From: Jeotgalicoccus saudimassiliensis
Lineage (GTDB): Bacteria; Bacillota; Bacilli; Staphylococcales; Salinicoccaceae
NCBI RefSeq assembly: GCF_000756715.1
Contig: NZ_CCSE01000001.1
Coordinates: 1,766,001 to 1,830,000 of the forward strand
Reading direction: 5' to 3'
Length of the DNA stretch: 64,000 bases
The notes under the pieces were generated by a model. It ran no database searches and was not told the DNA's origin. It saw nothing but the letters and a program-made list of their open reading frames with translations. Numbering within the stretch: the stretch's first letter is position 1; every line of letters begins with the position of its first letter. Below are positions 40,205 through 56,058 of the stretch, piece by piece. The position numbers and the translations under genes are program-made.

Positions 40205-40302
40205 GTAATCGAATCGTTAAACAGGATATTACTTCCATTATGATAAAATATTTTATAACATATTACGCAATGCAGAAAATTAAAAGGGAAAGGAAACTTA
40301 CA

Positions 40303-41283
40303 ATGAACCGCATGCCGTTCTTTGATAACGCGCGATTGATTCTTATTTTTCTCGTAGTATTTGGTCATATGATTCAGCCGTTTGCGTCTGACTCGCAGCT
40401 AATCAACTCGATTTATGCTTTTATTTATATTTTCCATATGCCGATGTTTATCATGCTGGCAGGATTTTTCGCGAAAGGTATCGGTGAACCGAAGTACATT
40501 TTAAATCTTGCAAAAAAACTGCTGCTGCCGTATTTGATGTTCCAGGGTCTGTACACCGTGCTGTACTTTCTCCTCGGACGCGAAAGCTGGTATAACGGCA
40601 TACTGCATCCGCAATGGGCAATGTGGTTTTTAGTCAGTCTCTTCAGCTGGCATATTCTGCTCGTATTGTTTAAACGCATTCCGGCAATGGTGAGTGTTCC
40701 GGCGGCGATATTTCTCGGCATTGCTGTCGGCTACGTCGACCTGTCGTCATTCGGCCTCAGCCTGTCTCGGACGTTCGCATTTTTCCCGTTCTTTTTAGCG
40801 GGCTACTTTATGACGAAAGAGCATGTCACGCTGATAAAAACCAAAGGCTTAAGTATTGCGGGAATTATTTTTATGATTGCGCTGTTTACGTTTATTTATC
40901 TCTTTATCAACGTGGATGTGACGCTCGATACAGACTGGCTGTCAGGGGCTGTTGCATACAGACGTCTTGAAGCGGAAATCAGCGGCGGGCTGATGCGCCT
41001 CATTATTTATATTCTGGCGGCGCTGCTGATTATCAGCATGATTGCTTTAATACCGTCCGGTGATTACGGCTGGCTGACGAAAATCGGTGAGAAAACATTA
41101 TACGTTTATCTGCTGCACGGATTTATTATTCAGCCGTTCAGGGAGTTTGATATTTTATGGTACAACAAATGGTATGAAACATTCTGGCTCATACTGCTGT
41201 CGGCACTTGTTGTGATTGTGCTGTCGAGCAGACCTGTGGTCGCACTGACAAGGCCGTTAGTTGAATTGAAGTGGAAACAGTAG
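40303..41283 (+). CDS. Membrane acyltransferase (acyltransferase 3 family), intact copy
   Basis: 326 residues from the ATG at 40303 (AAAGGAAA upstream); the frame runs 21 codons further back without a ribosome site. About ten membrane helices. The first has FFDNARLILIFLVVFGHM with the family R and H residues, and the late YLLHGFIIQPFRE segment is characteristic. These enzymes acetylate sugars or wall polymers at the surface. It forms a pair with the YczE-like gene. The IS element begins 15 bases after its stop, where the broken paralogue has its terminator. Confidence 0.85.
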   Translation: MNRMPFFDNARLILIFLVVFGHMIQPFASDSQLINSIYAFIYIFHMPMFIMLAGFFAKGIGEPKYILNLAKKLLLPYLMFQGLYTVLYFLLGRESWYNGILHPQWAMWFLVSLFSWHILLVLFKRIPAMVSVPAAIFLGIAVGYVDLSSFGLSLSRTFAFFPFFLAGYFMTKEHVTLIKTKGLSIAGIIFMIALFTFIYLFINVDVTLDTDWLSGAVAYRRLEAEISGGLMRLIIYILAALLIISMIALIPSGDYGWLTKIGEKTLYVYLLHGFIIQPFREFDILWYNKWYETFWLILLSALVVIVLSSRPVVALTRPLVELKWKQ

Positions 41284-43259: not shown

Positions 43260-44012
43260 GCCCACATAAACATTACTGCTAAGCGTTTAATCTTATACTT
43301 TTTCGGTTTGTTTTTTCTTTCTCTCGGTGTCAGTTTTTCTATTCAGGCAAATCTGGGTGTATCGCCCGTATCCTCATTAGCTTATGCATTTACACTTTCC
43401 ACAGGAATATCTATCGGCCTGATGACGATAGCCGCGAATGTCCTGTTTATTATTATTCAAATCATTTTAAGTAAAAAATTTAATTTAAGAGAAGCAATAT
43501 TTCAGCTGATTATTACTTTTCTTTTTGGTTTTATGATGAATTTTACATTGTTCCTCGTACAAATATTGCCGGCACCTGAAACATGGATTATGCGCAGTGC
43601 ATTTTTAGTAATCAGTTTATTTGTTGTTTCAACAGGACTGCTCGGTTATTTCAGCACAAAATTCCCGTTGATGCCATATGATGAATTAACACACGTAATC
43701 AGTGAAAAGTTCAATATGCAGTTCAGCAAAGCTAAAATTACGAGTGACTTGCTGAACGTTGCTGCAGCAGGTCTCATCTGTATTATCTTTATTCAGTCAC
43801 TCGGTTCAATAGGTATAGGCACATTAATTGCGGCGTATTTTATCGGAAAAATTACCGGTTGGATGATGAAGGAATATCAGCATCATTTAATAGACTGGTC
43901 GGGACAGCGTAAAGCAATCGCAGAAGAAGTAATAGAAACTGCAGAGCCTGGAAACGATACGGGATTCGAAGAAGAATTGCCAGAGCCTTTTGAAAATCCA
44001 ACAGCCCCATAG
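43239..44012 (+). CDS. YczE/YitT-like integral membrane protein, copy 2
   Basis: 257 residues from TTG at 43239, at the place of CTG in copy 1. Strongly similar to copy 1 over the whole length (same helices, same LFFLSLGVSFSIQANLGVSP start and charged tail), but diverged at many positions, and AT-richer. It is intact while its acyltransferase partner is broken. The start is uncertain for the same reason as in copy 1. Confidence 0.8.
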   Translation: MKGRITIAHINITAKRLILYFFGLFFLSLGVSFSIQANLGVSPVSSLAYAFTLSTGISIGLMTIAANVLFIIIQIILSKKFNLREAIFQLIITFLFGFMMNFTLFLVQILPAPETWIMRSAFLVISLFVVSTGLLGYFSTKFPLMPYDELTHVISEKFNMQFSKAKITSDLLNVAAAGLICIIFIQSLGSIGIGTLIAAYFIGKITGWMMKEYQHHLIDWSGQRKAIAEEVIETAEPGNDTGFEEELPEPFENPTAP

Positions 44013-44022
44013 CAGACAGAAG

Positions 44023-44048
44023 GAATCTCATTTGAGATTCTTTTTTTT
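44023..44048 (+). terminator. Terminator after YczE-like copy 2
   Basis: GAATCTCA (44023-44030) pairs with TGAGATTC (44033-44040), followed by eight T residues. Confidence 0.82.
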
Positions 44049-44136
44049 ATGCAAACAGGCTTTTACTTTCATTCTGATAAAATGTTTAATAACATATTAC
44101 GAAATACAGAAAATAAAAAGTGAAAGGAAGCTTATC

Positions 44137-44324
44137 ATGAGCCGTATGCCGTTTTTTGATAACGCCAGATTAATATTAATTTTTCTCGTTGTATTTGGTC
44201 ATATGATTCAGCCGTTTGCGTCTGATTCACAGCTGATCAACTCGATTTATGCATTTATATATATTCCATATGCCAATGTTTATAATGCTGGCAGGCTTTT
44301 TTCGCCAAAGGCATCGGTGAACCG
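44137..44324 (+). pseudogene. Acyltransferase copy 2, 5' fragment
   Basis: The first 43 codons match the intact copy at 40303 (MSRMPFFDNARLILIFLVV). Relative to it, two bases are missing near 44264 (ATTCCAT for ATTTTCCAT) and the T run at 44297-44302 has one extra base, so the frame is lost before the island. DNA similarity then ends exactly at CGGTGAACCG (44315-44324). The rest of the gene continues at 56049. Confidence 0.92.
44315..44324. other. attL core
   Basis: CGGTGAACCG with chromosome (acyltransferase) to the left and the element arm to the right, which ends in AGGGTAAAAC (44336-44345). The central GA (44319-44320) is a likely crossover dinucleotide. Confidence 0.85.
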
Positions 44325-44348
44325 TACCATAAGTGAGGGTAAAACTGA

Positions 44349-44370
44349 AAGGGACCTCAATGTGTCCCTT
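44349..44370 (-). terminator. Terminator of the large recombinase gene
   Basis: AAGGGAC (44349-44355) pairs with GTCCCTT (44364-44370); on the - strand, moderately T-rich sequence follows. Confidence 0.55.
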
Positions 44371-44424
44371 AGCTCTTTTTCCGTTGGATTCACTTTATTT
44401 AAGGGCGACAAATCAATGTTGCTA

Positions 44425-45897
44425 TCAGGAGCATAGCTCGCCATCTTTAGGAGAAGGCTTTTTGACTTTTTTTACTGCTTCTGGAGTAAAGTCAAAGTAT
44501 AACTTAATATTAGTAACCTCTCGTCCTTTCTGTCTTCCATGGCTCCTTTTTTCAGCCGAAGGCGTAATCTCAATCTGTTCCACAATCATACGTAAAAGTT
44601 CCTTCTTTTCCTCGCCACTTACTTTGTCCAGTATCTCATCGATATTTTTAATAAGATGGTGAAACGCCATTAAATCAATTGGTTTTGTATTGATGCTGGT
44701 AAGCTCTTCCTCAACTTCCTCCAGCTGTTTCTGGTTAGATATTTTCTCACTTTGCTGCTCTTTCAATCTTTCTGCAAATGAGGAAACTAAATCAGGGTCC
44801 TTCATTAGCTTATCAGTAATATTCGCAATATAGGTCTCATTTTGTTTTATTCTTGATTCAATATATTCCTTTTGTTTAATTAACGGTTCAATGGCGTGTT
44901 CTCTTTCCTGGTTCAGCTTTGCGACCAATTGTTTGATGAAACTAGAGTCTGTTACAATACGTTTAATTTCATCTAGTACTTGTGCCTCAGCAATATCTGC
45001 ATTGATACTATTCGATGAACATACAGATGACCCTTTGTTATGGAAGGTGCCACATACATAATAACGATATGTTTTAGTTCTCCCTTTGGACTTTGCAGAT
45101 ACCATTCCAGCACCACATTGTGGACAACGTATAAGTCTAGATAGAAAGTAAGGTTTGGAGGACTGTACAGCTTTATATGAGCGTCCTTGTCTTTTTAGTT
45201 GTATACTATCCCATAATTCTTTATCTATAATGGGCTCGTGTATTCCATCAACTATAATAGTCTCCTTGTTTTTCCCTTTTCTTCTTTTTTCAGCCCAATT
45301 TTCATGTTGATTGAATCGGAGTTTTCCAATATACATGGGGTTGTCTAATATCCTCTTTACTGTTGCAATGGAGAACTCATTTCCCTTTTTCGTTTTATAT
45401 CCTTTACGATTAATGATTCCAGTTATCTTTTTGTATCCATGCCCCTTGTCGGCAAGTTGGAATATCTCTTTTACAATGATAGCTTCATTAGGATTTACAA
45501 AAAGTTGCTTGTCCTTGGAATCATAGCCTATACATTGACCGCCATTCCATTTCCCTTCCTTGGGCCTTTGTGTCATGCCCATCTTCACACGACCAACTAT
45601 TTGCTCTCTTTCCATTTCTGCCAATGAGCTTAATACGGTATAAAACATTCGTCCATGAGGAGTGATTGTATCAATGCTTTCGGATAAACTGATGAGTTGT
45701 ACTCCATGATTATTTAATGTTTCAGCAATTTCCAGTGAATCTCTTGTTTTTCTAGCAAGACGGTCTAGCTTATAAATGATGACAGTATCAAATTTCTTTT
45801 GAGCAGCATCTTTAAGCAATTTCGTCATTTGTGGTCTTCCAGAAATACTTTTTCCACCTTGCATTGGTAGGCTGACAATATTGTTTTCTTTTACCAT
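44425..45897 (-). CDS. Large serine recombinase lacking the N-terminal catalytic segment
   Basis: 490 residues. Starts where normal members are about 45 residues into the catalytic domain: GGKSISGRPQM and IYKLDRLARKT (near residue 40) are present, but the upstream Y-x-R-V-S-T segment with the nucleophilic serine is not. The recombinase domain (about 130-250), zinc ribbon (CPQCGAGM...YVCGTFHNKGSSVC, about 275-315) and a coiled coil (about 350-420) are complete. A perfect GGAGG lies seven bases before the ATG and a stop codon stands in frame just upstream, so no hidden extension exists. It should be inactive alone. Confidence 0.88.
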   Translation of the reverse strand: MVKENNIVSLPMQGGKSISGRPQMTKLLKDAAQKKFDTVIIYKLDRLARKTRDSLEIAETLNNHGVQLISLSESIDTITPHGRMFYTVLSSLAEMEREQIVGRVKMGMTQRPKEGKWNGGQCIGYDSKDKQLFVNPNEAIIVKEIFQLADKGHGYKKITGIINRKGYKTKKGNEFSIATVKRILDNPMYIGKLRFNQHENWAEKRRKGKNKETIIVDGIHEPIIDKELWDSIQLKRQGRSYKAVQSSKPYFLSRLIRCPQCGAGMVSAKSKGRTKTYRYYVCGTFHNKGSSVCSSNSINADIAEAQVLDEIKRIVTDSSFIKQLVAKLNQEREHAIEPLIKQKEYIESRIKQNETYIANITDKLMKDPDLVSSFAERLKEQQSEKISNQKQLEEVEEELTSINTKPIDLMAFHHLIKNIDEILDKVSGEEKKELLRMIVEQIEITPSAEKRSHGRQKGREVTNIKLYFDFTPEAVKKVKKPSPKDGELCS

Positions 45898-45924
45898 GTT
45901 ATCTCCTCCATTCTCCGTTTATTT

Positions 45925-46161
45925 CTATTTCTGCTGGACGTAAAAAGGAACTCGATTTCCCAATTCATTATTGCAGTTGTAGTAAGCATACTTAGCAATA
46001 ATATTCTCCAGCTCCTCTAGGCTTGTAATTTTAACTTTCATACCAAGACACCAGAGACCATTGATATGTGCTGGGTGCACCTTATTTGCTACAAGGAACC
46101 CAGTCCAATAACCTTCCTTTCTAATAGCAGCTTTTACAGTATTTTTGTGTTGACGTAACAT
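45925..46161 (-). CDS. Small protein of unknown function, upstream of the large recombinase
   Basis: 78 residues from the ATG at 46161 with GAAGGTG before it; the open frame extends 29 codons further without a site. Basic N-terminal half (LRQHKNTVKAAIRKEGYW), then mixed sequence with two cysteines; no known domain recognised. It ends 27 bases before the recombinase, in the place where the missing catalytic segment would be expected, but it has no similarity to it. It may be a recombination accessory protein. Confidence 0.6.
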   Translation of the reverse strand: MLRQHKNTVKAAIRKEGYWTGFLVANKVHPAHINGLWCLGMKVKITSLEELENIIAKYAYYNCNNELGNRVPFYVQQK

Positions 46162-46445
46162 GTTCTCACCTTCTTTCAATTCATCAATAAAATAACCCCT
46201 CATAAAAAGGGGGTGGCCACCAAACGTTTGAAATAACAATTTATACATACATAACTAGAGGTTGGATTTTTTGTTATTTTTAAATCCTAAAGAGTGATTT
46301 TTGTAAGAGTAACCTGTTTCAATGGGGTACTCTACTGGGATGAAATATAGATGTGGATTTTACTGGATTCATAGTTTCCCATTTACATGTTCCAAAATTA
46401 GATATAAAATAATAGTAAATAAAATTCATATTTGGAGTGTGAAGT

Positions 46446-47036
46446 ATGATATACGGTTATGCTCGTGTATCCAACAAAGACCAAAATTTAGCTAGGCAAA
46501 TCGAGGCATTAAAAAATGAAGGATGCGAAAATATTTTTAAAGAGATGGTAAGCGGTGCAAATTTAAATAGACCAGCTCTACAAAATTTATTAGAAGAACT
46601 TAATGCTGGTGATATTGTAATCGTTCATAGTTTAGACCGTATTAGCCGCTCGACAGTAGACTTACTTAATTTAGTAGAAATGATGAAGAAAAAAGGAGTT
46701 TTTATGAAGTCACTTCAAGATGCTTGGTTTGATATGACAGATGATAATCCTTTTTCAGATTTTCTTTTAACAATTATGTCTGGACTATCTGAATATGAAA
46801 GAAAAATGATTAAGAGTAGGCAGCGTGAAGGAATAATTCAAGCTAAAAAAGAGGGGAAATATAAAGGAAGGATAAGAAAATATACGGAAAATCATGTTGG
46901 AATGAACCATGCTATTGAACTGTACCATTCTGGTGCGAAAACTGTGAAAGAAATATGTGATATCACAAAAGTAAGTAAAAGTGCATTATATCGTGAGTTA
47001 AAAAGGCGTGAAGGGGATATTCTAGTTAAGTCATAA
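46446..47036 (+). CDS. Small serine recombinase (resolvase/invertase family)
   Basis: 196 residues, complete. The catalytic serine is S9 in YGYARVSN; HSLDRISRSTVDLL and the long E helix with SGLSEYERKMIKSRQREGI follow. The C-terminal helix-turn-helix (KTVKEICDITKVSKSALYREL) binds DNA. It has a GGAG site eight bases before the ATG. It is divergent from the large recombinase and points to the defence operon. It may resolve or invert DNA, or assist the large enzyme. Confidence 0.92.
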   Translation: MIYGYARVSNKDQNLARQIEALKNEGCENIFKEMVSGANLNRPALQNLLEELNAGDIVIVHSLDRISRSTVDLLNLVEMMKKKGVFMKSLQDAWFDMTDDNPFSDFLLTIMSGLSEYERKMIKSRQREGIIQAKKEGKYKGRIRKYTENHVGMNHAIELYHSGAKTVKEICDITKVSKSALYRELKRREGDILVKS

Positions 47037-47068
47037 AAATGGATTGATGGGAAGAGGAGGGAAATCTA

Positions 47069-50000
47069 ATGCAAATAATAGATAATATCCATCAGAAATT
47101 AAATGACGACTTAAAAAACACAATAAAAAAGGATAGTAAAGTTTCTATTGCTGCTGCTTATTTTTCAATTTACGCTTACCAAGAATTGAAAAAACAACTG
47201 GAACAAGTAGATGAACTAAGGTTCTTATTCACTTCGCCTTCATTTACTTCTGATAAGACAAAAAAGGAAAAACGTGAATTTTATATTCCTCGTCTAAATA
47301 GAGAAAAGAGTCTATATGGTACGGAGTTCGAGGTGAAATTAAGAAATGAGCTAACACAAAAAGCTATAGCAAAGGAATGCGTAGACTGGATAAAGAAAAA
47401 AGCTCAATTTAAGTCAAATGTTACCCAGGAACACATCTCTGGTTTTATGAATGTTAATAGTTCAGACGATTACACTTATGCTCCATTAAATGGCTTCACA
47501 ACAATTGATTTAGGTGTAGAGAAAGGGAATCATATGCACGGTTTGGTTAATCGTGTTGAAGGGGAAAATGCATTATATTATAAGCGTACTTTCGACCAAA
47601 TCTGGAATGATAAGGAAAAACTACAAGACGTCACAGATGAAGTTATAGATAACATCACAACAGTCTATAAAGAAAACGCACCTGAATTTATTTATTTCCT
47701 GACATTATATAATATCTTCAATGAATTCTTGGATGATCTATCTGAAGATGTGTTACCAGATGAAGCAACAGGTTTTAAAGAATCGGCTATTTGGAATAAG
47801 TTATATGATTTTCAAAAAGAGGCATGTTTGGCGATGATAAATAAATTAGAAAAATATAATGGATGCATTTTAGCCGATAGTGTAGGGCTGGGTAAGACAT
47901 TTACTGCTTTAAGCGTAATTAAGTATTACGAAAATCGAAATAAGACTGTTTTGGTTCTCTGTCCCAAAAAGCTATCAGATAATTGGAATACATATAAACA
48001 AAACCTTTTAAACAATCCAATTGCAGATGACCGTTTAAGATATGATGTACTATACCATACTGATTTATCTAGAGATAAGGGATACTCCAATGGAATTCCT
48101 TTGGATAGAATCAATTGGGGTAATTATGACTTAGTGGTTATTGATGAATCACATAACTTCCGCAACGGAGGACAAGTATATGGTGAAAATGATGAGAAGG
48201 AAAATCGTTATTTAAAATTATTAAATCGTGTTATTCGTCAGGGAGTGAAAACGAAAGTATTAATGTTATCTGCAACCCCAGTAAACAATCGATTTACAGA
48301 TTTAAAAAACCAATTGGCACTAGCATATGAGGGGGAAGAGGATAAACTTAATCGAAAACTCAATACTAAAACGACAATCGATACTATTTTCAGACGAGCC
48401 CAAGCTGTTTTTAATACTTGGAGTGAATCACCAGCTGAGAAACGGACAACAGACCAATTACTTAGAATGCTGGATTTTGATTTCTTCGAATTGCTTGATA
48501 GTGTGACTATTGCACGTTCTAGAAAGCATATCGAACAATACTATGATAAGGTTGAGGTTGGCACTTTTCCAGAAAGGAGAACACCTATATCCATTAGATG
48601 TAACCTTTCAAACATAGAAAATCTCATGGATTATAACACTATATATGAACATTTATCAATGTTGAATTTAGGGATTTATAAGCCTACAGAGTATATATTA
48701 CCTAGTAAAATATCCAAGTATGAAGAGATATACGGGACAGATATGGCACATACTAGGTTTAAACAATCTGACAGAGAACAAGGTATCTTAGTATTGATGA
48801 GAACAAACTTACTAAAACGCCTTGAAAGCTCGGTATATTCTTTCCGTTTAACGATGGAACGCATGTTAACTAATATTAACAACACGATACAGACAATTAA
48901 TGATTATCGTGAAGGAAAGAGTGTAGAGATTAATAATATCAATAGAGATGATTTCGATATAGATGACCAGAATACTGACTTTTTCAGCGTGGGTTCTAAG
49001 GTAAAAATCATTCTAAATGATATGGATTACCAATCCTGGCTTGATGATTTAAATGATGATAAAGAAATTTTGATTAAATTAATTGATGAAATGAAACGTG
49101 TTAGTCCACAAAATGATGAGAAGCTCTTCCAATTAATAAAAACGATTGAACACAAGATAAATAATCCTATTAATGAGCAGAATAAAAAAGTCATTATTTT
49201 TTCAGCTTTTTCAGATACAGTTGAGTATCTGTATAAACATGTAAGTACATATTTTAGAGATAAATATGGTTTGAATTCAGCCATGGTAACTGGTGGGGAT
49301 GGAGGAGCGAATACCGTAAAAGGGTTGTCTAATGACTTAAACACCATATTGACTTGTTTCTCGCCTAAATCAAAAGATAAAGAGCTGATTCTTCCAAATC
49401 AAACAGAAGGTATTGATATATTAATTGCTACCGATGTCATATCAGAAGGGCAAAACCTTCAAGACTGTGATTATCTTATTAATTATGACATACATTGGAA
49501 TCCTGTGCGAATCATTCAACGGTTTGGACGTATAGACCGTATTGGAAGTACGAATAAAGAGATTCAGTTAGTGAATTTTTGGCCAGACATGGATTTAGAT
49601 GACTACATTAACTTAAAAGCACGTGTAGAAACAAGAATGAAAATTACGGTTATGACATCAACAGGTGATGATAATCCAATTGATGATGAAAGTGGTGACT
49701 TAGAATATAGGAAGCAGCAGTTGGAACGGCTACAGAAGGAAGTTGTTGATATTGAAGAAATGACAAGCGGTGTTTCTATAATGGACCTTGGCTTAAATGA
49801 ATTCCGCATGGATTTGCTGGGCTATATTAAAGAAAAACCAAGCTTAGAAGAAGCTCCAATGGGAATGCATGCAATTGTACCTAGTTCTGATGAGCACCCC
49901 CCTGGTGTCGTATATATCCTAAAAAATATTAACAATGATATTAATGCAAAAAGCCAGAATCGCCTCTATCCCTTTTATTTAGTTTATATATCAGAAGAGG

Positions 50001-50299
50001 GAGAAGTGATACACAACCATTTAGACCCTAAAACAATCCTTGATTTACTGAGATTAAAATCAAGAGGATTTACTGAGCCAATTATGAATCTTTGTCGGAG
50101 CTTTAATGAAGAAACCAGTGATGGTCGAAATATGGAGAAATACTCAGACCTTCTCCAAGATACAATTAGTTCCATTATAAACGTAAATGAAGAAAGTGAT
50201 ATCGATAGTCTCTTTAAGGCTGGAGGTACAACAGCACTTAGAACACATGTTAAGGGATTAGATGATTTTGAACTAGTCTCATTTATGGTGGTGAGGTAA
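47069..50299 (+). CDS. SNF2-like helicase with PLD-like N-terminal region
   Basis: 1076 residues. The N-terminal 200 residues (VSIAAAYFSIYAYQELKKQL at about 25-44) resemble the degenerate phospholipase D-like part found before such helicases, but no HKD motif is visible. Motif I is ADSVGLGKT (residues 269-277), motif II DESH (359-362), SATPVNNR motif III, and motif VI QRFGRIDRIG from residue 817. A C-terminal part of about 200 residues has no known fold. Start behind GGAGGG; the stop overlaps the next gene (TAATG). It likely translocates on DNA for the Mod/Res pair. Confidence 0.88.
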   Translation: MQIIDNIHQKLNDDLKNTIKKDSKVSIAAAYFSIYAYQELKKQLEQVDELRFLFTSPSFTSDKTKKEKREFYIPRLNREKSLYGTEFEVKLRNELTQKAIAKECVDWIKKKAQFKSNVTQEHISGFMNVNSSDDYTYAPLNGFTTIDLGVEKGNHMHGLVNRVEGENALYYKRTFDQIWNDKEKLQDVTDEVIDNITTVYKENAPEFIYFLTLYNIFNEFLDDLSEDVLPDEATGFKESAIWNKLYDFQKEACLAMINKLEKYNGCILADSVGLGKTFTALSVIKYYENRNKTVLVLCPKKLSDNWNTYKQNLLNNPIADDRLRYDVLYHTDLSRDKGYSNGIPLDRINWGNYDLVVIDESHNFRNGGQVYGENDEKENRYLKLLNRVIRQGVKTKVLMLSATPVNNRFTDLKNQLALAYEGEEDKLNRKLNTKTTIDTIFRRAQAVFNTWSESPAEKRTTDQLLRMLDFDFFELLDSVTIARSRKHIEQYYDKVEVGTFPERRTPISIRCNLSNIENLMDYNTIYEHLSMLNLGIYKPTEYILPSKISKYEEIYGTDMAHTRFKQSDREQGILVLMRTNLLKRLESSVYSFRLTMERMLTNINNTIQTINDYREGKSVEINNINRDDFDIDDQNTDFFSVGSKVKIILNDMDYQSWLDDLNDDKEILIKLIDEMKRVSPQNDEKLFQLIKTIEHKINNPINEQNKKVIIFSAFSDTVEYLYKHVSTYFRDKYGLNSAMVTGGDGGANTVKGLSNDLNTILTCFSPKSKDKELILPNQTEGIDILIATDVISEGQNLQDCDYLINYDIHWNPVRIIQRFGRIDRIGSTNKEIQLVNFWPDMDLDDYINLKARVETRMKITVMTSTGDDNPIDDESGDLEYRKQQLERLQKEVVDIEEMTSGVSIMDLGLNEFRMDLLGYIKEKPSLEEAPMGMHAIVPSSDEHPPGVVYILKNINNDINAKSQNRLYPFYLVYISEEGEVIHNHLDPKTILDLLRLKSRGFTEPIMNLCRSFNEETSDGRNMEKYSDLLQDTISSIINVNEESDIDSLFKAGGTTALRTHVKGLDDFELVSFMVVR

Positions 50300-50955
50300 T
50301 GTTTGATTTCCCTAAAAGTACTTTATTTGACCGTAGAATACCAAAGACGAAATTCTATGAGCATTTACAAGTTAACAATAAGCTCGAACAAATGTTTATC
50401 AAAGAGATTGATAAAATAATATGGAAATATAAATTGTCACCAGATACCTTGAATATTGATTCTGGTAATTATATTAGTGAGATAGAGTTACTGGAGGTTC
50501 ATTTAAGGCAGGAAAAGGTGAGTCATAATATTATTGAACAAATTGATAGAGAAATACCATATCATATTGTATTCATTATAAATTATGCAAATAAATATCA
50601 ACTCTGGGTCAGCTACAAAGAGCAACATAAAAATAGAGAAGGGAAATTCAAAGTAGACACCTACTTTAAAACGGATTGGATTAAACAAGAAAATCTTGAG
50701 CTGAAAATAGAAGGACTTAATTTGGACCAGGTATATGAATCTTTCATTCAGCAAATTGGTCAAGACCAAATAATAGTTGATAAAGATGAAGGGCTTAAAA
50801 GGGCTGTTGAGCAATCAAAGGAAAGAGATAAGCTAAAAAGGAAAATCCATTTAATGGAAAAAAAGATTGCTAAAGAAAAACAATTTAAAAAGCAAGTTTC
50901 CATGATGAGTGAATTAAGGCAGCTCAAAGCCCAATTAGATGGTGAGCAGCCATAG
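50299..50955 (+). CDS. DUF4391 family protein
   Basis: 218 residues. It begins with FDFPKSTLFDRRIPKTKFYEH and contains a conserved centre (IPYHIVFIINYANKYQLWVSYKE), as in DUF4391 proteins that stand between helicases and type III methyltransferases in defence loci. The C-terminal 50 residues form a basic coiled coil (KLKRKIHLMEKKIAKEK). No catalytic motif was recognised. It is coupled to the helicase gene by one shared base and precedes mod by 16 bases. It may link the helicase to Mod. Confidence 0.75.
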   Translation: MFDFPKSTLFDRRIPKTKFYEHLQVNNKLEQMFIKEIDKIIWKYKLSPDTLNIDSGNYISEIELLEVHLRQEKVSHNIIEQIDREIPYHIVFIINYANKYQLWVSYKEQHKNREGKFKVDTYFKTDWIKQENLELKIEGLNLDQVYESFIQQIGQDQIIVDKDEGLKRAVEQSKERDKLKRKIHLMEKKIAKEKQFKKQVSMMSELRQLKAQLDGEQP

Positions 50956-50971
50956 AAAGGATTGAAGTTAA

Positions 50972-52927
50972 TTGGATAGAATGAAAATGGAATCAGCAAA
51001 TATAAGAGAGCGAAATATTGATAAAATTGCAGAATTGTTTCCTAATGTTATTACTGAAGCCAAAGATGAGGATGGCAATATAAAAAAAGGAATAGATTTT
51101 GACCTATTGAAGAAGGAACTTGCAGAAAATCTAGCAGATGAACAAGAGCGTTATGCATTTAATTGGGTAGGTAAAAAAGAAGCTATTGCAAAAACATATG
51201 AACCAATTACAAAAATTTTAAGGCCTGTTAAAGACAAAAGCAAAAACTGGGAGAATACTGAAAATATATTTATTGAGGGAAACAATATTGATACGTTAAA
51301 GATTTTACAAGAATCCTATTTAAATGCCGTACAAATGATATACATTGACCCTCCTTATAATTCTGGTGAGGACTTTATTTATAAAGATGACTATAGTATG
51401 GATACCGATGATTACAACGCACAGATAGGGATGTTTGATGAAGAAGAGAACAAACTGTTTAAAAATACAGAATCGAATGGGCGATTTCACTCAGACTGGT
51501 GTAATTCAATGTATCCAAGTCTAAAGCTTTCACAAAACCTGTTAAAAGATGACGGTATAATTTTTATTAGTATTGATGATAACGAATTATATAACCTAAA
51601 GAAAATGTGTGATGAAATATTTGGTGAGAGCAATTTTATAGCAAACATTGTACGCAATACTAACAGTTCTAAAAATCAGAGCCTGTTTGTTTCTGTTAGT
51701 CATGAGTATTGCTTAGTTTATGCTAAAAATATAGAAACCTTAAAATTAAAACATAGGGATAATAAATGGTCGGTACCAAAAAACAATGTTGATGAATACA
51801 TGAAAAGGGTTAGTCAACTTGAAAAGGAAGGTCTTTCAACAGAGGAAATAACAGCGGAGTTAAAAAGCTTAACCAGGTATCCGAGGTTTATCGACTTTAC
51901 CAATTATTGGTATTTTGACGACAGAGGTCTTTATCGTAAAGATAATATAGGTGGCGTTAGAAACGGGAATTTAAATCCAGTTTATAATCCATTAACAAAA
52001 CAAAATGACCCTGTACCACCAGGTGGTTATAGGTATAAGGAAGAAACTTTAAAACAATTGATAGATGAGGATAGAATTCATTTTCATACGGATGGAAGCT
52101 TACCTACTGTAAAAAGATACTTACATGAAAATATGGAACAAAGACCTAAGTCGATTATGTCAGATGACCAACGTCCAGATTATTCTATGATGAAAGCATT
52201 TAACACTCCCTTTGATAATCCAAAGCAATTATCTTTTATTAAACGGATTTTAAGTTTAGCGGATAAAGATGCAATTATAATGGACTTTTTTGCGGGTTCT
52301 TCCACAACCGCACACGGTGTTATGAAATTAAACAAAGAAGATGGTGGTCAAAGGAAATATATTATGGTTCAACTTGATGAAGAGGTTAATCCAAAAAGTG
52401 AAGCATATAAGAAGGGTTATAAGACTATTACAGATATATCCATTGAAAGAATTCGTAAGGCTGGCGAAGCAATAGTTGATGACGTTAATAAAAGTCAAGG
52501 AGAGAAGTTGCAAGTGCCTGATGTAGGCTACAGATATTTTAGATTAGATGATTCGAATATGAAAGATATTTATTACTCGGCTAACGAATACTCTCAGGAT
52601 ATGATTGCATCTTTAGAATCTAATATAAAAGAAGACCGTTCCGATTTAGATTTACTTTACGGTGTAATGATTGATTGGGGCTTACCACTGTCATTGAATC
52701 ATGAAACAGAAGAGATGGATAATGCCACTGTCCATATTGTCGATTGTGGGTCTCTAGTGGCTTGTTTTGAAGATAGCATTACAGACGATGTCGTAAAAGG
52801 TATTGCACAGAAGAAACCATTAAGAGCAGTCTTTAGAGACAGTAGCTTTAGAAATAGCCCAGATAAAATCAATGTAACTGAAATCTTTAAACTTTATGCA
52901 CCTAGTACAACAGTAAAAGTGATTTAG
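50972..52927 (+). CDS. mod: Type III restriction-modification methyltransferase (Mod)
   Basis: 651 residues if read from TTG at 50972; ATG at 50981 or 50987 is possible, none has a strong ribosome site. N6-adenine beta-class order: DPPY (residues 126-129) precedes the SAM-binding DFFAGSSTTAHGV (438-450). Between them lies the target-recognition region (about 220-390), which sets the DNA site. Mod would recognise and modify one strand and direct Res. The full length fits type III Mod proteins. Confidence 0.9.
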   Translation: MDRMKMESANIRERNIDKIAELFPNVITEAKDEDGNIKKGIDFDLLKKELAENLADEQERYAFNWVGKKEAIAKTYEPITKILRPVKDKSKNWENTENIFIEGNNIDTLKILQESYLNAVQMIYIDPPYNSGEDFIYKDDYSMDTDDYNAQIGMFDEEENKLFKNTESNGRFHSDWCNSMYPSLKLSQNLLKDDGIIFISIDDNELYNLKKMCDEIFGESNFIANIVRNTNSSKNQSLFVSVSHEYCLVYAKNIETLKLKHRDNKWSVPKNNVDEYMKRVSQLEKEGLSTEEITAELKSLTRYPRFIDFTNYWYFDDRGLYRKDNIGGVRNGNLNPVYNPLTKQNDPVPPGGYRYKEETLKQLIDEDRIHFHTDGSLPTVKRYLHENMEQRPKSIMSDDQRPDYSMMKAFNTPFDNPKQLSFIKRILSLADKDAIIMDFFAGSSTTAHGVMKLNKEDGGQRKYIMVQLDEEVNPKSEAYKKGYKTITDISIERIRKAGEAIVDDVNKSQGEKLQVPDVGYRYFRLDDSNMKDIYYSANEYSQDMIASLESNIKEDRSDLDLLYGVMIDWGLPLSLNHETEEMDNATVHIVDCGSLVACFEDSITDDVVKGIAQKKPLRAVFRDSSFRNSPDKINVTEIFKLYAPSTTVKVI

Positions 52928-52937
52928 GAGGTTTATT

Positions 52938-55900
52938 ATGAAGCTACAATTTAAACATCAAAAGTTCCAGGCGGATGCAGCAGCTGCTGTCTGTAAAGTG
53001 TTTAATGGACAACCTAAGTTAACCCCAACTTACATTGTTGATAAAGGTGTACTTCAAGACAGGCAGTTGACAATGGATGATAATGAAACGTTAACAGGTT
53101 ATAACAATAAAAAAATATTACTTTCTGATAACCAAGTCCTAGAAAATTTACAAAAAGTCCAGCGAGAAAATCAGCTGGAACCGTCAAAACACTTAGAGGG
53201 CAAGTTCAATCTAACTGTTGAAATGGAGACAGGAGTTGGGAAAACGTACACTTATATTAAAACAATGTTTGAGTTGAACAAATTATATGGTTGGAGTAAA
53301 TTTATCGTCGTTGTACCATCAGTAGCAATCCGTGAAGGTATTTATAAGTCGTTTCAGGTAACACAAGAACATTTTAGTTTAGATTATAATAAGAAGGCAC
53401 GCTTCTTCATTTATAACTCAAAAGATTTAACAAAGGTTGAACAATTTGCTAGCGATAGTGGAATCAATGTAATGATAATAAACTCTCAGGCATTTAATGC
53501 AAGAGGTAAAGATGCAAGGCGAATATACATGGAACTGGATGACTTTCAATCAAGAAGGCCGATTGATGTTATTGCAGCCACCAACCCTATTATGATTATA
53601 GATGAACCACAATCTGTAGAGGGAAAAGCTACAAAGGAAAAGTTAAAAGAATTTAATCCATTAATGACTTTGCGATATTCAGCAACACATAAAAAAGATT
53701 CAATTTACAATATGATTTATCGTTTGGATGCCCTAGAAGCTTATAATAAGCGCTTAGTTAAGAGAATTGCTGTCAAAGGTATCTCGGTATCTGGAACCAC
53801 TGGAACGGATAGCTATTTATATTTAGAGAGAATCAACTTATCAGGTGATAAGCCACCAACCGCTTCTTTAGGCTTTGAAAAAAAAGGTAAAAACAAAGTG
53901 CGACGTATTACACGTCATGTTCGTGAAGGAGATAACCTGTTTGATTTGTCTGATGGTCTTGAACAATATAAAGGATTCACTATTGCTCGTATTAGCGGTC
54001 TTGACAACAGTGTAGAGTTTACGAATGGCATAATAATATACGCTGGAGAAGTAGTTGGTGAAGTCAATGAAGAGCACCTAAGACGCATTCAAATAAGAGA
54101 AACAATCCAGTCTCATTTAGAAAAAGAACGCGATTTATTTTATAAAGGTATCAAAGTATTATCGCTATTCTTTATTGATGAGGTTGCAAAATATAAACAA
54201 TATGATGAAGCTGGGCAAGAGATGAATGGCATTTATGGTGATATTTTTGAAGAGGAATATGAATCAATTCTAAATGAATGGCAAATCCAATTTGGGGAAG
54301 ATGATTATCTCAATTATGTTAATAAAATAGATGCATCAAAAACGCATAAAGGCTATTTTTCAATCGATAAAAAATCTAACCAATTTAAAGAAAGCAAAAT
54401 TAATAATCGTAAGGAAAGTACTTCCGATGATGAAGATGCATATGACCTCATTATGAAGGATAAAGAACGTTTATTAGATATGAAAGAACCAGTTCGTTTT
54501 ATTTTCTCACATTCAGCATTACGTGAAGGTTGGGATAATCCCAATGTTTTTCAAATATGTACATTAAAGCAAAGTAGCTCGGATGTTCGTAAAAGACAAG
54601 AAGTAGGGCGTGGATTAAGACTTAGCGTGAATAATGTAGGGGAAAGAATGGATGCTACCATACTTGGTGAAGATGTACATACGGTTAATACCTTAACAGT
54701 TGTTGCAAATGAAAGCTATGAGGATTTTACGAAAAGCTTACAATCAGAAATTGCAGCAGTTGTTGCAGATAGACCAAGAGAGGTAACATATGATCTATTT
54801 GAAAATAAAGTGATTAAAGATGAAAATGGATTAAATGAACAAGTCGTTGACCGAAAACTAGCCATGAAAATCACCAATGGTTTAATAAGGAATGATTACT
54901 TAAATGATAGCAATGAATTAACAGAGACCTATTATAGCGATGTAAAGAATGGTGAACTAAAAGTTGCTGAAGAACTTGCACCTTATACTTATGAAATTGT
55001 AGGGATTCTTGATTCAATTTATGACCCTAATGCCATGAAACCTGAAAATGCTAGAGATAACAACGTTGAAGCGAAAGTGGATGAAACCAAGCTCCAAATG
55101 GAAGAATTTAAAGCACTTTGGAACAAAATTAATCATAAGTCAGCTTATGTTGTTAATTTTGACACAGATGAACTAATTAGTAAGTCCATTAATGAATTGG
55201 ACCGTAAGTTAAGAGTATCAAAGATTTACTTTAAAATTGATGCAGGTGAAATGGAGTCCATTAAATCAAAAGAATCATTAGAAGCGGGAGAAGATTTTAA
55301 AAAGACTTCCTCTGATGATAAGGAAGTGGATTCTATGGTAAATGCAAATGTGAAATATGATTTAATTGGGCAGATTGTGGAACAAACTGAACTCACTAGA
55401 CACAACGTTAGTCAAATCCTAAGAGGAATTGCAAAAACAACATTTGACCAATTTAAGATGAATCCAGAAGAATTCATTATAAAATGTTCAAATTTAATTA
55501 ATGAGCAAAAAGCGACGGTTATTATTGAACACATTTCTTATAATAAACTAGATGAGTCATATACAACTGATATTTTCACAGAGCCAACGTTAAAGGGTAA
55601 GCTCGAAGTAAATGCAATGAAAACTAACAAGCATTTGTATGACCATTTAATTTATGATTCAACAAATGAACGTAAATTTGCAGAAAGCCTTGATTCAAAA
55701 GAGAACGTTGCAGTGTATATTAAACTGCCTAATGGCTTCTATATAAATACACCAGTTGGAAAATACAACCCTGACTGGGCAATCGCTTTTGAAGAAGGAA
55801 CGGTTAAACATATTTATTTTGTGGCTGAAACAAAAGGAAGTATGTCATCCATGGACATTCGAAAGGTCGAGAAGCTAAAGGAACATTGTGCTAAAGAACA

Positions 55901-55985
55901 TTTTAAGAAAATAAGCGATAATACTGTTAAGTACGATATTATTTCAAACTTTGACGAACTTTTGAACTTTGTGAATTCGAATTAA
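52938..55985 (+). CDS. res: Type III restriction subunit (Res)
   Basis: 1015 residues with an AGGAGG site. Walker A METGVGKT at residues 96-103, DEPQ motif II, SATH motif III, and RQEVGRGLRL motif VI give the SF2 translocase. At the C-terminus NPDW (D946) and ETKG (E964, K966) form a PD-(D/E)xK nuclease site, so the cutting function appears intact. It follows mod by ten bases and ends 60 bases before the island end; a terminator comes after. Confidence 0.92.
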   Translation: MKLQFKHQKFQADAAAAVCKVFNGQPKLTPTYIVDKGVLQDRQLTMDDNETLTGYNNKKILLSDNQVLENLQKVQRENQLEPSKHLEGKFNLTVEMETGVGKTYTYIKTMFELNKLYGWSKFIVVVPSVAIREGIYKSFQVTQEHFSLDYNKKARFFIYNSKDLTKVEQFASDSGINVMIINSQAFNARGKDARRIYMELDDFQSRRPIDVIAATNPIMIIDEPQSVEGKATKEKLKEFNPLMTLRYSATHKKDSIYNMIYRLDALEAYNKRLVKRIAVKGISVSGTTGTDSYLYLERINLSGDKPPTASLGFEKKGKNKVRRITRHVREGDNLFDLSDGLEQYKGFTIARISGLDNSVEFTNGIIIYAGEVVGEVNEEHLRRIQIRETIQSHLEKERDLFYKGIKVLSLFFIDEVAKYKQYDEAGQEMNGIYGDIFEEEYESILNEWQIQFGEDDYLNYVNKIDASKTHKGYFSIDKKSNQFKESKINNRKESTSDDEDAYDLIMKDKERLLDMKEPVRFIFSHSALREGWDNPNVFQICTLKQSSSDVRKRQEVGRGLRLSVNNVGERMDATILGEDVHTVNTLTVVANESYEDFTKSLQSEIAAVVADRPREVTYDLFENKVIKDENGLNEQVVDRKLAMKITNGLIRNDYLNDSNELTETYYSDVKNGELKVAEELAPYTYEIVGILDSIYDPNAMKPENARDNNVEAKVDETKLQMEEFKALWNKINHKSAYVVNFDTDELISKSINELDRKLRVSKIYFKIDAGEMESIKSKESLEAGEDFKKTSSDDKEVDSMVNANVKYDLIGQIVEQTELTRHNVSQILRGIAKTTFDQFKMNPEEFIIKCSNLINEQKATVIIEHISYNKLDESYTTDIFTEPTLKGKLEVNAMKTNKHLYDHLIYDSTNERKFAESLDSKENVAVYIKLPNGFYINTPVGKYNPDWAIAFEEGTVKHIYFVAETKGSMSSMDIRKVEKLKEHCAKEHFKKISDNTVKYDIISNFDELLNFVNSN

Positions 55986-55990
55986 TATTA

Positions 55991-56018
55991 AAGGTAGCCA
56001 GAAAGACTAGGCTACCTT
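55991..56018 (+). terminator. Terminator of the defence operon
   Basis: AAGGTAGCC (55991-55999) pairs with GGCTACCTT (56010-56018), followed by ACTTCTTGTGTTTT. It is only 30 bases from the right end of the island. Confidence 0.82.
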
Positions 56019-56048
56019 ACTTCTTGTGTTTTACCCTATCCAACGTTA

Positions 56049-56058
56049 CGGTGAACCG
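56049..56058. other. attR core
   Basis: CGGTGAACCG with the element arm on its left, which begins with GTTTTACCCT (56029-56038), and chromosome on its right. Joined to the attL arm it gives 25-base arms on both sides of the central GA. Confidence 0.85.

Follow-up and report, generated by a model that had tools for sequence, protein, structure and literature searches.

Classical type III restriction needs only two proteins, the methyltransferase Mod and the endonuclease subunit Res; cutting requires ATP and a pair of unmethylated sites in opposite orientation, and modification is by hemimethylation. Here, we analyzed a 64,000-nucleotide stretch of the genome of Jeotgalicoccus saudimassiliensis (NZ_CCSE01000001.1, positions 1,766,001-1,830,000; in the following called the window, in whose positions all coordinates are given), in which a mod-res pair is preceded by two further genes, one encoding a SNF2-type motor with a degenerate PLD domain (HEL) and the other a protein of the family DUF4391. 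Our interpretation is based on the gene content, the intactness of the motifs, the conservation of the unit, the folds predicted for its proteins, distance covariation and the insertion itself. With moderate confidence we regard the four genes as a type III restriction-modification system that is extended to four subunits and located on an 11.7 kb serine-recombinase element. A complex of the four proteins, the contacts within it, the role of HEL and an antiphage activity of the system are what we infer from them.

Comparison with the classical type III enzyme EcoP15I revealed that both of its subunits align with Mod and Res of the window, that mod and res are adjacent and that the motifs are kept. 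The window differs by two additional conserved proteins encoded upstream, the pseudo-PLD SNF2-type motor and DUF4391, and in contrast to classical type III most of the associated Res proteins form a clade of their own. As the sequence features of Mod and Res are those of type III, but the composition is not limited to these two subunits, with HEL and DUF4391 preceding Mod-Res, we file the locus as a type III variant and not as a plain member. CglI/NgoAVII and the BREX-related type-2 systems are related to the unit in mechanism. SauUSI (accessible part of PMC12707154) shares the PLD fold of the HEL N-terminus, of which it is the best match, and likewise the fusion of motor and PLD domain; CglI and NgoAVII are restriction systems consisting of a PLD nuclease and an ATPase (PMC4267653, as far as available), and CglI has a separate methyltransferase gene as in the window cassette. 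All of these differ from the window, where the PLD site is lost and the PD-(D/E)xK domain of Res can do the cutting. According to the accessible part of PMC12839542, the BREX-related (BR) type-2 systems comprise DUF499, an HKD-SNF2 helicase, DUF3780 and an N6-methyltransferase, and are therein alike in having a PLD-SNF2 motor, a small alpha/beta DUF protein, an adenine methyltransferase and embedded back-up effectors. The window differs by its type III Res, its dead PLD site and the lack of DUF499 in the element; neither PglZ nor DUF499 was matched by Pfam among the seven open reading frames (ORFs) of the element.

DrmD of DISARM has a related SNF2-type motor, yet HEL reaches 152.6 bits with NF038317 (cut-off 610) and 90 bits with NF038318 (cut-off 950), and 80.8 bits with a DrmA model. 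The PLD-helicase anti-phage protein NF042964 likewise has a related motor, and HEL scores 136.1 bits (351-890) against a cut-off of 1100. UvrD-Cas4 fusion proteins have been described beside type III Mod/Res, with extra helicase, WYL and Schlafen-type genes around them (accessible part of PMC5704561), and this resembles two of the related loci described below, in which DUF4391 and Mod are separated by a UvrD-type gene (L160, L190), one of them with a WYL gene 5' of HEL (L190). However, the available text of that paper names neither a SNF2-type motor nor DUF4391, and in our loci UvrD stands beside many other kinds of cargo. A PLD-SNF2 protein beside a methylase is known from a Lactococcus plasmid (PMC6098607, in its available part). 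The four-gene unit is undescribed in the accessible parts of PMC10853773, PMC2292703, PMC6098607 and PMC3874151, and a description was not found in the literature searched, a scope to which subscription papers did not belong; in the same literature DUF4391 appeared in a single paper, as a table row only, and C3a139, a PADLOC model discussed below, not at all.

The four genes had been described in a first-pass annotation, made from the sequence alone, as adjacent genes on the forward strand separated by one overlap and two short gaps, and this holds true: they occupy positions 47069-55985 and are all intact (Table 1). A PADLOC run, which had been suggested as a check, called Mod and Res type III, labeled HEL loosely as "HKD+Snf2" and left DUF4391 unmatched. 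Mod, previously taken for a beta-class adenine methyltransferase, indeed matches Pfam N6_N4_Mtase, and its DPPY motif (126) precedes FAGSS (440), which is the motif order of the beta class. It scores 681.6 bits with PADLOC MTase_III and aligns with the Mod subunit of EcoP15I (4zcf_A) at an E value of 4.3e-67, where EcoP15I has FAGSG in place of FAGSS. In the same way, the intact Walker A motif and PD-(D/E)xK site claimed for Res were found again (GVGKT at 99, NPDW at 944, ETK at 964), together with IDEP at 221. Res matches Pfam ResIII and RE_endonuc (116.8 bits), scores 979.1 bits with PADLOC REase_III and aligns with EcoP15I Res (4zcf_C) at an E value of 1e-65. For the relatives our motif patterns turned out to be too narrow, and nothing was concluded from misses of the Mod motif-I pattern (83 of 105 proteins), of PD...ETK (17 of 102 Res) or of IDEP (47 of 102). 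In three related loci two Mod-like ORFs stand in tandem (L102:13899-17649, L107:13995-18311 and L142:4945-8865), perhaps providing two recognition specificities.

HEL carries the Pfam domains SNF2-rel_dom and Helicase_C and the motor motifs GLGKT (273), IDESH (358) and QRFGRIDR (817), in line with its original assignment as a SNF2-like helicase. Its N-terminal region, which had been noted as odd, proved by fold comparison to be a degenerate PLD domain. A model of residues 1-244 (pLDDT 73 overall, but low at 61-83 and 202-233) matched at E <= 0.001 in Foldseek two chains of SauUSI and the NgoAVII R protein only (5.5e-6 to 6.6e-5). In VIA-align, SauUSI ranked first (Z 12.9, 147 residues, root-mean-square deviation 3.5), followed by FAM83B (Z 11.9), NgoAVII R (Z 11.6, 157 residues, deviation 4.0), BfiI (Z 10.7) and many other PLD proteins. 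The PLD active site (HxK...GSxN) is lacking in the window protein, whose active-site strand reads YAPLNGFT by eye, and inspection of the alignment revealed no conserved H or H-x-K column within the main HEL branch. Therefore, the N-terminal domain probably does not cut. One deep-branching relative (L036, 10319-13573, reverse strand) retains HGK...GSSNFT, an apparently complete PLD site, and partial sites occur in other deep relatives, namely GSSDFT (L038, L054) and GTVDFT (L032). The simplest explanation would be an ancestral fusion of PLD nuclease and motor whose nuclease site was lost in the main branch, and the remaining domain probably serves in DNA holding or sensing or in dimerization instead of cutting.

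Matches to the pattern H.K.{3,6}D, found in 9 of 104 HEL N-termini and at residue 8 of the window protein, were rejected as nuclease sites; they lie mostly distant from the PLD site, and those of L038 and L178, which lie near it, are taken as chance because by eye their spacing to the GSxN-like stretch differs from that in L036. The same pattern overlooked the HGK of L036. The motif-VI pattern was also too narrow, being missing in 13 of 104 HEL proteins, and nothing was concluded from such misses. As a marker for HEL, the PADLOC model C3a139 ("HKD+Snf2") was discarded: it assigned 581 bits to a 1293-amino-acid protein of genome G253 (L094:7129-11010), which adjoins a DruE-like gene and yielded neither a helicase motif in the pattern search nor a hit with the HEL profile. 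The label is not specific, and the model appears to be mixed.

The second protein matches the family DUF4391 (PF14335, 190.9 bits against a cut-off of 29.9, residues 2-213). AlphaFold2 predicted with a pLDDT of 94.3 and a pTM of 0.86 an alpha/beta domain (1-140) and, C-terminal to it, an antiparallel coiled-coil hairpin (about 160-218). Among 75 DUF4391 sequences there is no conserved catalytic set; P5 is the sole invariant position and K16, W127, E193 and Q195 are nearly so, with E193 and Q195 falling in the coiled coil. A Foldseek search of the PDB returned nothing at E <= 0.001 (best 0.22), although this alone does not establish that the fold is new. The better VIA-align matches span the coiled coil alone, the alpha/beta part giving a few scattered rows with Z below 5, and a sequence search of the PDB returned two designed coiled coils and mitofusin.

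A survey of gene neighborhoods had been proposed as a check of the extended system. A genome scan with the HEL alignment as query, covering one genome per species, yielded at least 552 relatives, of which the best 80 were kept; these are 53-70% identical to HEL over the full or nearly full length. According to the record titles these 80 span at least ten phyla, among them Bacillota, Bacteroidota, Pseudomonadota, Verrucomicrobiota, Planctomycetota and Spirochaetota as well as Actinomycetota, Fibrobacterota, Acidobacteriota and Thermodesulfobacteriota, and include a relative of Campylobacter and others. In 78 of the 80 loci a DUF4391 gene lies 3' of HEL and reads in the same direction, either directly or past a cargo gene; the two loci without a call are L110, with 342 bp of sequence past HEL, and L119, with 2384 bp and a weak 28-bit piece of DUF4391 near the end. 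In 66 of the 80, HEL, DUF4391, Mod and Res occur in this order on one strand, and the remaining 14 run into a contig end 342 to 5054 bp beyond HEL. Since DUF4391 lies same-strand 3' of HEL in 78 of 80 loci, the four-gene arrangement is not due to chance.

A second count was made in 398 genomes of the phylum, of which 34 contain PF14335, in comparison to 0 of 14 control genomes. HEL places above 370 bits numbered 31, or 30 after removal of the G253 protein, with the window and a shortened frame of 829 amino acids (G237) included; at most two candidates were scored per genome, and HEL genes may therefore be missed. DUF4391 lies beside 29 of these 30 places, in one case (G374) with its first part only before the contig end; the exception is a 4.75 kb contig with a different gene after HEL (G312). 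Split HEL genes beside DUF4391 in two genomes (G320, G159) and a truncated HEL (G377) scored below 370 bits and were not counted. The merely occasional adjacency named beforehand as evidence against the annotation is thus not what the surveys show (78/80, 66/80 and 29/30). Furthermore, records in which one place spans 80% or more of HEL number 97 of 72,556 for plasmids and 3 of 50,697 for phages. In the four records examined, one plasmid each from Enterococcus, Leuconostoc kimchii (LkipL4701, L191) and Raoultella and one phage record, the four-gene unit is present, with a weak DUF4391 on the Enterococcus plasmid (38.7 bits). In the Erysipelothrix phage record MF172979.1 the DUF4391 protein (L192:15234-15947) is annotated as a methyl-accepting chemotaxis protein. 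For a locus from Pasteurellaceae (L109) the four nearest rows come from Bacillota whichever of the four genes is taken, which looks like a transfer of the whole unit.

In many loci the unit is interrupted by additional genes. Gaps larger than 200 bp occur in 11 of 109 loci between HEL and DUF4391, in 41 of 101 between DUF4391 and Mod, and in 34 of 93 between Mod and Res, and a few of them stem from broken core genes. These gaps contain 101 ORFs of at least 70 amino acids, 90 of them on the operon strand, and the 81 same-strand cargo proteins of at least 110 amino acids fall into 60 sequence clusters, 47 of which are singletons. Pfam families among the 81 include Schlafen AlbA_2 (8), RhuM (6), Fic (6) and AAA_21 (4) as well as SIR2_2, HerA (DUF87), Abi_C and OLD-type TOPRIM with 2 each, and there are single cases of TIR, Trypsin_2, GmrSD_N and UvrD. 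Examples of this variable defense-type cargo, comprising SIR2 and HerA pairs, TIR, GmrSD, UvrD and an AAA ATPase accompanied by a small protein, are found at L040:10696-14216, L060:5171-8706, L041:2134-3033, L044:10296-13395 and L160:5796-11114. The slots of the window itself hold no cargo. Embedded effectors are known from restriction operons of type I (PrrC) and from BREX (accessible parts of PMC12707154 and PMC12839542), and in the unit described here back-up effectors may likewise be housed in slots between the core genes.

We compared distance matrices of the four proteins in 77 loci with all genes full-size (79 before removal of identical HEL). The matrices correlate at 0.67-0.84 for every gene pair (HEL-DUF4391 0.81, HEL-Res 0.84, DUF4391-Res 0.82), with shuffled maxima of 0.16-0.28. 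Partial correlations in the main clade (70 loci) are 0.55 for HEL-DUF4391, 0.33 for DUF4391-Res and 0.54 for Mod-Res, and 0.13, 0.09 and 0.08 for HEL-Res, DUF4391-Mod and HEL-Mod. After removal of the variable recognition part of Mod, they amount to 0.54, 0.40 and 0.35 for the first three pairs, and to 0.14 for HEL-Res, 0.06 for DUF4391-Mod and 0.15 for HEL-Mod. When HEL was cut in three, a link to DUF4391 was seen for the C-terminal part only (0.42; motor -0.03, N-terminus 0.07). The excess of DUF4391-Res over DUF4391-Mod is not explained by linkage, because gene order alone would favor DUF4391-Mod. The resulting chain HEL-DUF4391-Res-Mod fits an adaptor role for DUF4391, and the guess of the first-pass annotation to this effect receives indirect support from the predicted structure, the lack of a conserved catalytic set and this chain.

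The reverse view, starting from Res, is less uniform. RE_endonuc (PF19778) is present in 63 of the 398 genomes, and 55 of 57 Res places above 70 bits were examined (left out were G018:C57 and G083:C442). HEL and/or DUF4391 lie 5' of Res in 27 of the 55, just one of the two in 2. A quick maximum-likelihood tree was built from 105 Res proteins, namely 88 associated with the pair, 9 undecidable and 8 without, including two pairs of identical rows. The window falls into a clade of 89 rows (support 99), comprising 80 associated rows, 8 undecidable rows at contig ends and a single row without the pair, which is L065 and bears HEL remnants. A group of 10 rows is mixed (4 associated, 5 without, 1 undecidable), and another 4 associated rows make up a clade apart from these two. 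The label "associated" requires 12 changes on the tree, compared with a mean of 16.0 after shuffling and only 1 of 500 shuffles as low, with undecidable rows treated as different. The tree over-represents associated loci, as rows outside the phylum sample were found via HEL, and the 55 places are the fairer count.

Several observations weigh against the four-subunit system. Of the 55 Res places, 11 lack both HEL and DUF4391 and 17 are undecidable due to contig ends. Of these 11, L065 and L087 contain HEL remnants, L067 and L086 consist of a fragment of Res, and L076 is a broken Res standing as an orphan; in the other six (L068, L069, L073, L078, L083, L085) both Mod and Res are full-size and the pair is missing. 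In L078 Res precedes Mod, and L083 and L085 sit on a Res branch of length 2.19. Thus, the pairing is nearly obligate from the side of HEL, but the pair is not required by every type III Res. Conversely, a truncated HEL of 657 amino acids stands without any partner (G377, L098). The Res of the window remains below the cut-off of NCBIfam PRK15483 (NF012027; 372.4 bits over 1-1008 against 564), and outside the coiled coil DUF4391 resembles no solved fold in Foldseek or VIA-align. Regarding the covariation, distances between loci are non-independent, noise varies by protein and the comparison is confined to the four genes of the unit; in addition, the link between the HEL C-terminus and DUF4391 could come from linkage, as both parts are neighbors on the DNA. 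A different SNF2-type helicase gene lies near two of the pair-less Mod-Res loci (L068:2-1885, 59 bits to the HEL profile; L073:7794-9110, 45 bits), and motor genes near type III loci may recur independently.

With these points in mind, the main alternatives concern the relation of the first two genes to Mod-Res. HEL and DUF4391 might be an independent two-gene defense system that adjoins a self-sufficient Mod-Res. They are the tightest pair, with large gaps in 11/109 loci versus 41/101 for DUF4391-Mod, and Mod-Res exists without them in the six full-size loci; however, wherever the sequence continues for more than about 1.6 kb past DUF4391 of a HEL-DUF4391 pair, Mod lies downstream, the gene order is identical across phyla and the covariation of DUF4391 with Res exceeds what HEL explains (partial 0.33-0.40), which makes us consider two separate systems quite unlikely. 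A control or safety function, in which the task of the motor on host DNA is to clear, reset or inhibit Res (restriction alleviation) and the pair is dispensable for cutting phage DNA, would agree with the same co-occurrence data, and with its PLD nuclease site lost HEL need not be an effector; moreover, some Res relatives without the two proteins stay full-size. Classical type III Mod-Res manages without such a module and the diverse operon cargo resembles an attack or back-up layer more, and we therefore regard this function as unlikely, if somewhat easier to defend. The pairing of a helicase with a small DUF protein also recalls Hachiman, where HamA is released by HamB and a DUF protein can be a nuclease (accessible part of PMC12278908). 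A corresponding role of DUF4391 as effector nuclease released by HEL is very improbable, as no catalytic set is conserved among the 75 sequences, the structure matches contain no nuclease fold, although a missing match is weak evidence, and Res already bears a nuclease domain with its motif.

We return to the extended type III system. By homology, Mod would recognize a DNA site and methylate host DNA, and together with Res it would form an EcoP15I-like restriction core. HEL would act as a second ATP-driven DNA translocase without nuclease, and DUF4391 would bridge the C-terminal part of HEL and Res and thereby couple the second motor to the Mod-Res core. A likely benefit would be either restriction beyond two correctly oriented (head-to-head) sites, or the sensing of stalled or blocked restriction, in which case the embedded effectors would form a second line. 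Going further, one may tentatively imagine a two-motor, four-subunit machine with its own mechanism, in which DUF4391 physically couples the nuclease-dead PLD-SNF2 translocase to Res. The operon would then be a chassis, with exchangeable back-up effectors in the slots between its genes that fire when the main machine is blocked, and the system would count as a class of its own next to type III and not as a type III with passengers; this is possible, but we would rather bet against it.

The cassette is part of an inserted stretch of about 11.7 kb (about 44315-56058) that contains two recombinases, a small ORF and the four genes, seven ORFs in total, and is bordered by direct repeats of CGGTGAACCG (Table 1). 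Both flanks share the same 10 bp, CGGTGAACCG, in the empty site (L181:1506-1515). According to Pfam, the insertion split an Acyl_transf_3 gene, with its start at about 44100-44320 and the remainder from 56026. The same gene is uninterrupted in 7 of 8 other genomes of the genus, and in the eighth (G401) the match covers only a part and contains stop codons. An uninterrupted paralogue, 87% identical across the aligned part, is kept at 40240-41283. By eye, the left remnant (43990-44436) seems to be frame-shifted ahead of the junction. A recent acquisition would fit, because this genome is the sole carrier of a DUF4391 relative among 33 genomes of the family.

Table 1. Features of the inserted element in the window.
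Feature	Position	Strand	Description
Left CGGTGAACCG copy	44315..44324	.	10-bp direct repeat, left insertion junction; left-flank alignment to the intact gene ends here
CcrB-like large serine recombinase	44425..45897	-	Pfam Resolvase 44-145/145, Recombinase, Zn_ribbon_recom; NCBIfam CcrB 340.1 bits
Small ORF	45925..46248	-	107 amino acids; lies between the two recombinases
Small resolvase/invertase-type serine recombinase	46446..47036	+	Pfam Resolvase 140.8 bits, HTH_7; 32 bases 5' of HEL
HEL	47069..50299	+	1076 amino acids; pseudo-PLD (~1-195), SNF2-type translocase motor (~240-860), conserved C-terminal part
DUF4391	50299..50955	+	218 amino acids; 1-base overlap with HEL; Pfam PF14335; proposed adaptor
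Mod	50972..52927	+	651 amino acids, TTG start; 16 bases after DUF4391; type III adenine methyltransferase
Res	52938..55985	+	1015 amino acids; 10 bases after Mod; SF2 motor, PD-(D/E)xK endonuclease domain
Right CGGTGAACCG copy	56049..56058	.	Right insertion junction; right-flank alignment to the intact gene begins here

In the large serine recombinase, the resolvase domain is without its beginning (profile positions 1-43), and the missing N-terminus was not seen in the three frames just upstream. Judged by this defect, the enzyme is probably inactive and the element probably stuck unless another recombinase acts. The protein does not reach the Ccr cut-offs of SCC-type elements (CcrB 340.1 bits against 900, CcrC 264.6 against 900, CcrA 130 against 700). 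For the small ORF, no match at E <= 0.001 was found in Pfam, PADLOC, NCBIfam or PHROGs. The serine recombinases were also considered as parts of the system and rejected, as relatives (phmmer, E <= 1e-8) occur in only 5 of 147 loci (L032-L178). A conserved gene 5' of HEL was not found either: 96 loci have sequence there, 67 of them with an ORF of at least 110 amino acids close to HEL (52 on the HEL strand), and among the 66 ORFs scanned (L051 was left out) no Pfam family occurs more than three times.

Type III enzymes have been modeled for decades as Mod plus Res. As the type III genes and the two further proteins are found together for nearly every relative of the motor examined, across many phyla, this textbook picture of two proteins looks incomplete for a large type III branch. 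If a wide branch indeed has two further obligate subunits, many type III annotations would describe half a machine, and work restricted to Mod and Res from this branch may overlook its activity. Furthermore, the gaps between the core genes are a place to seek new defense effectors.

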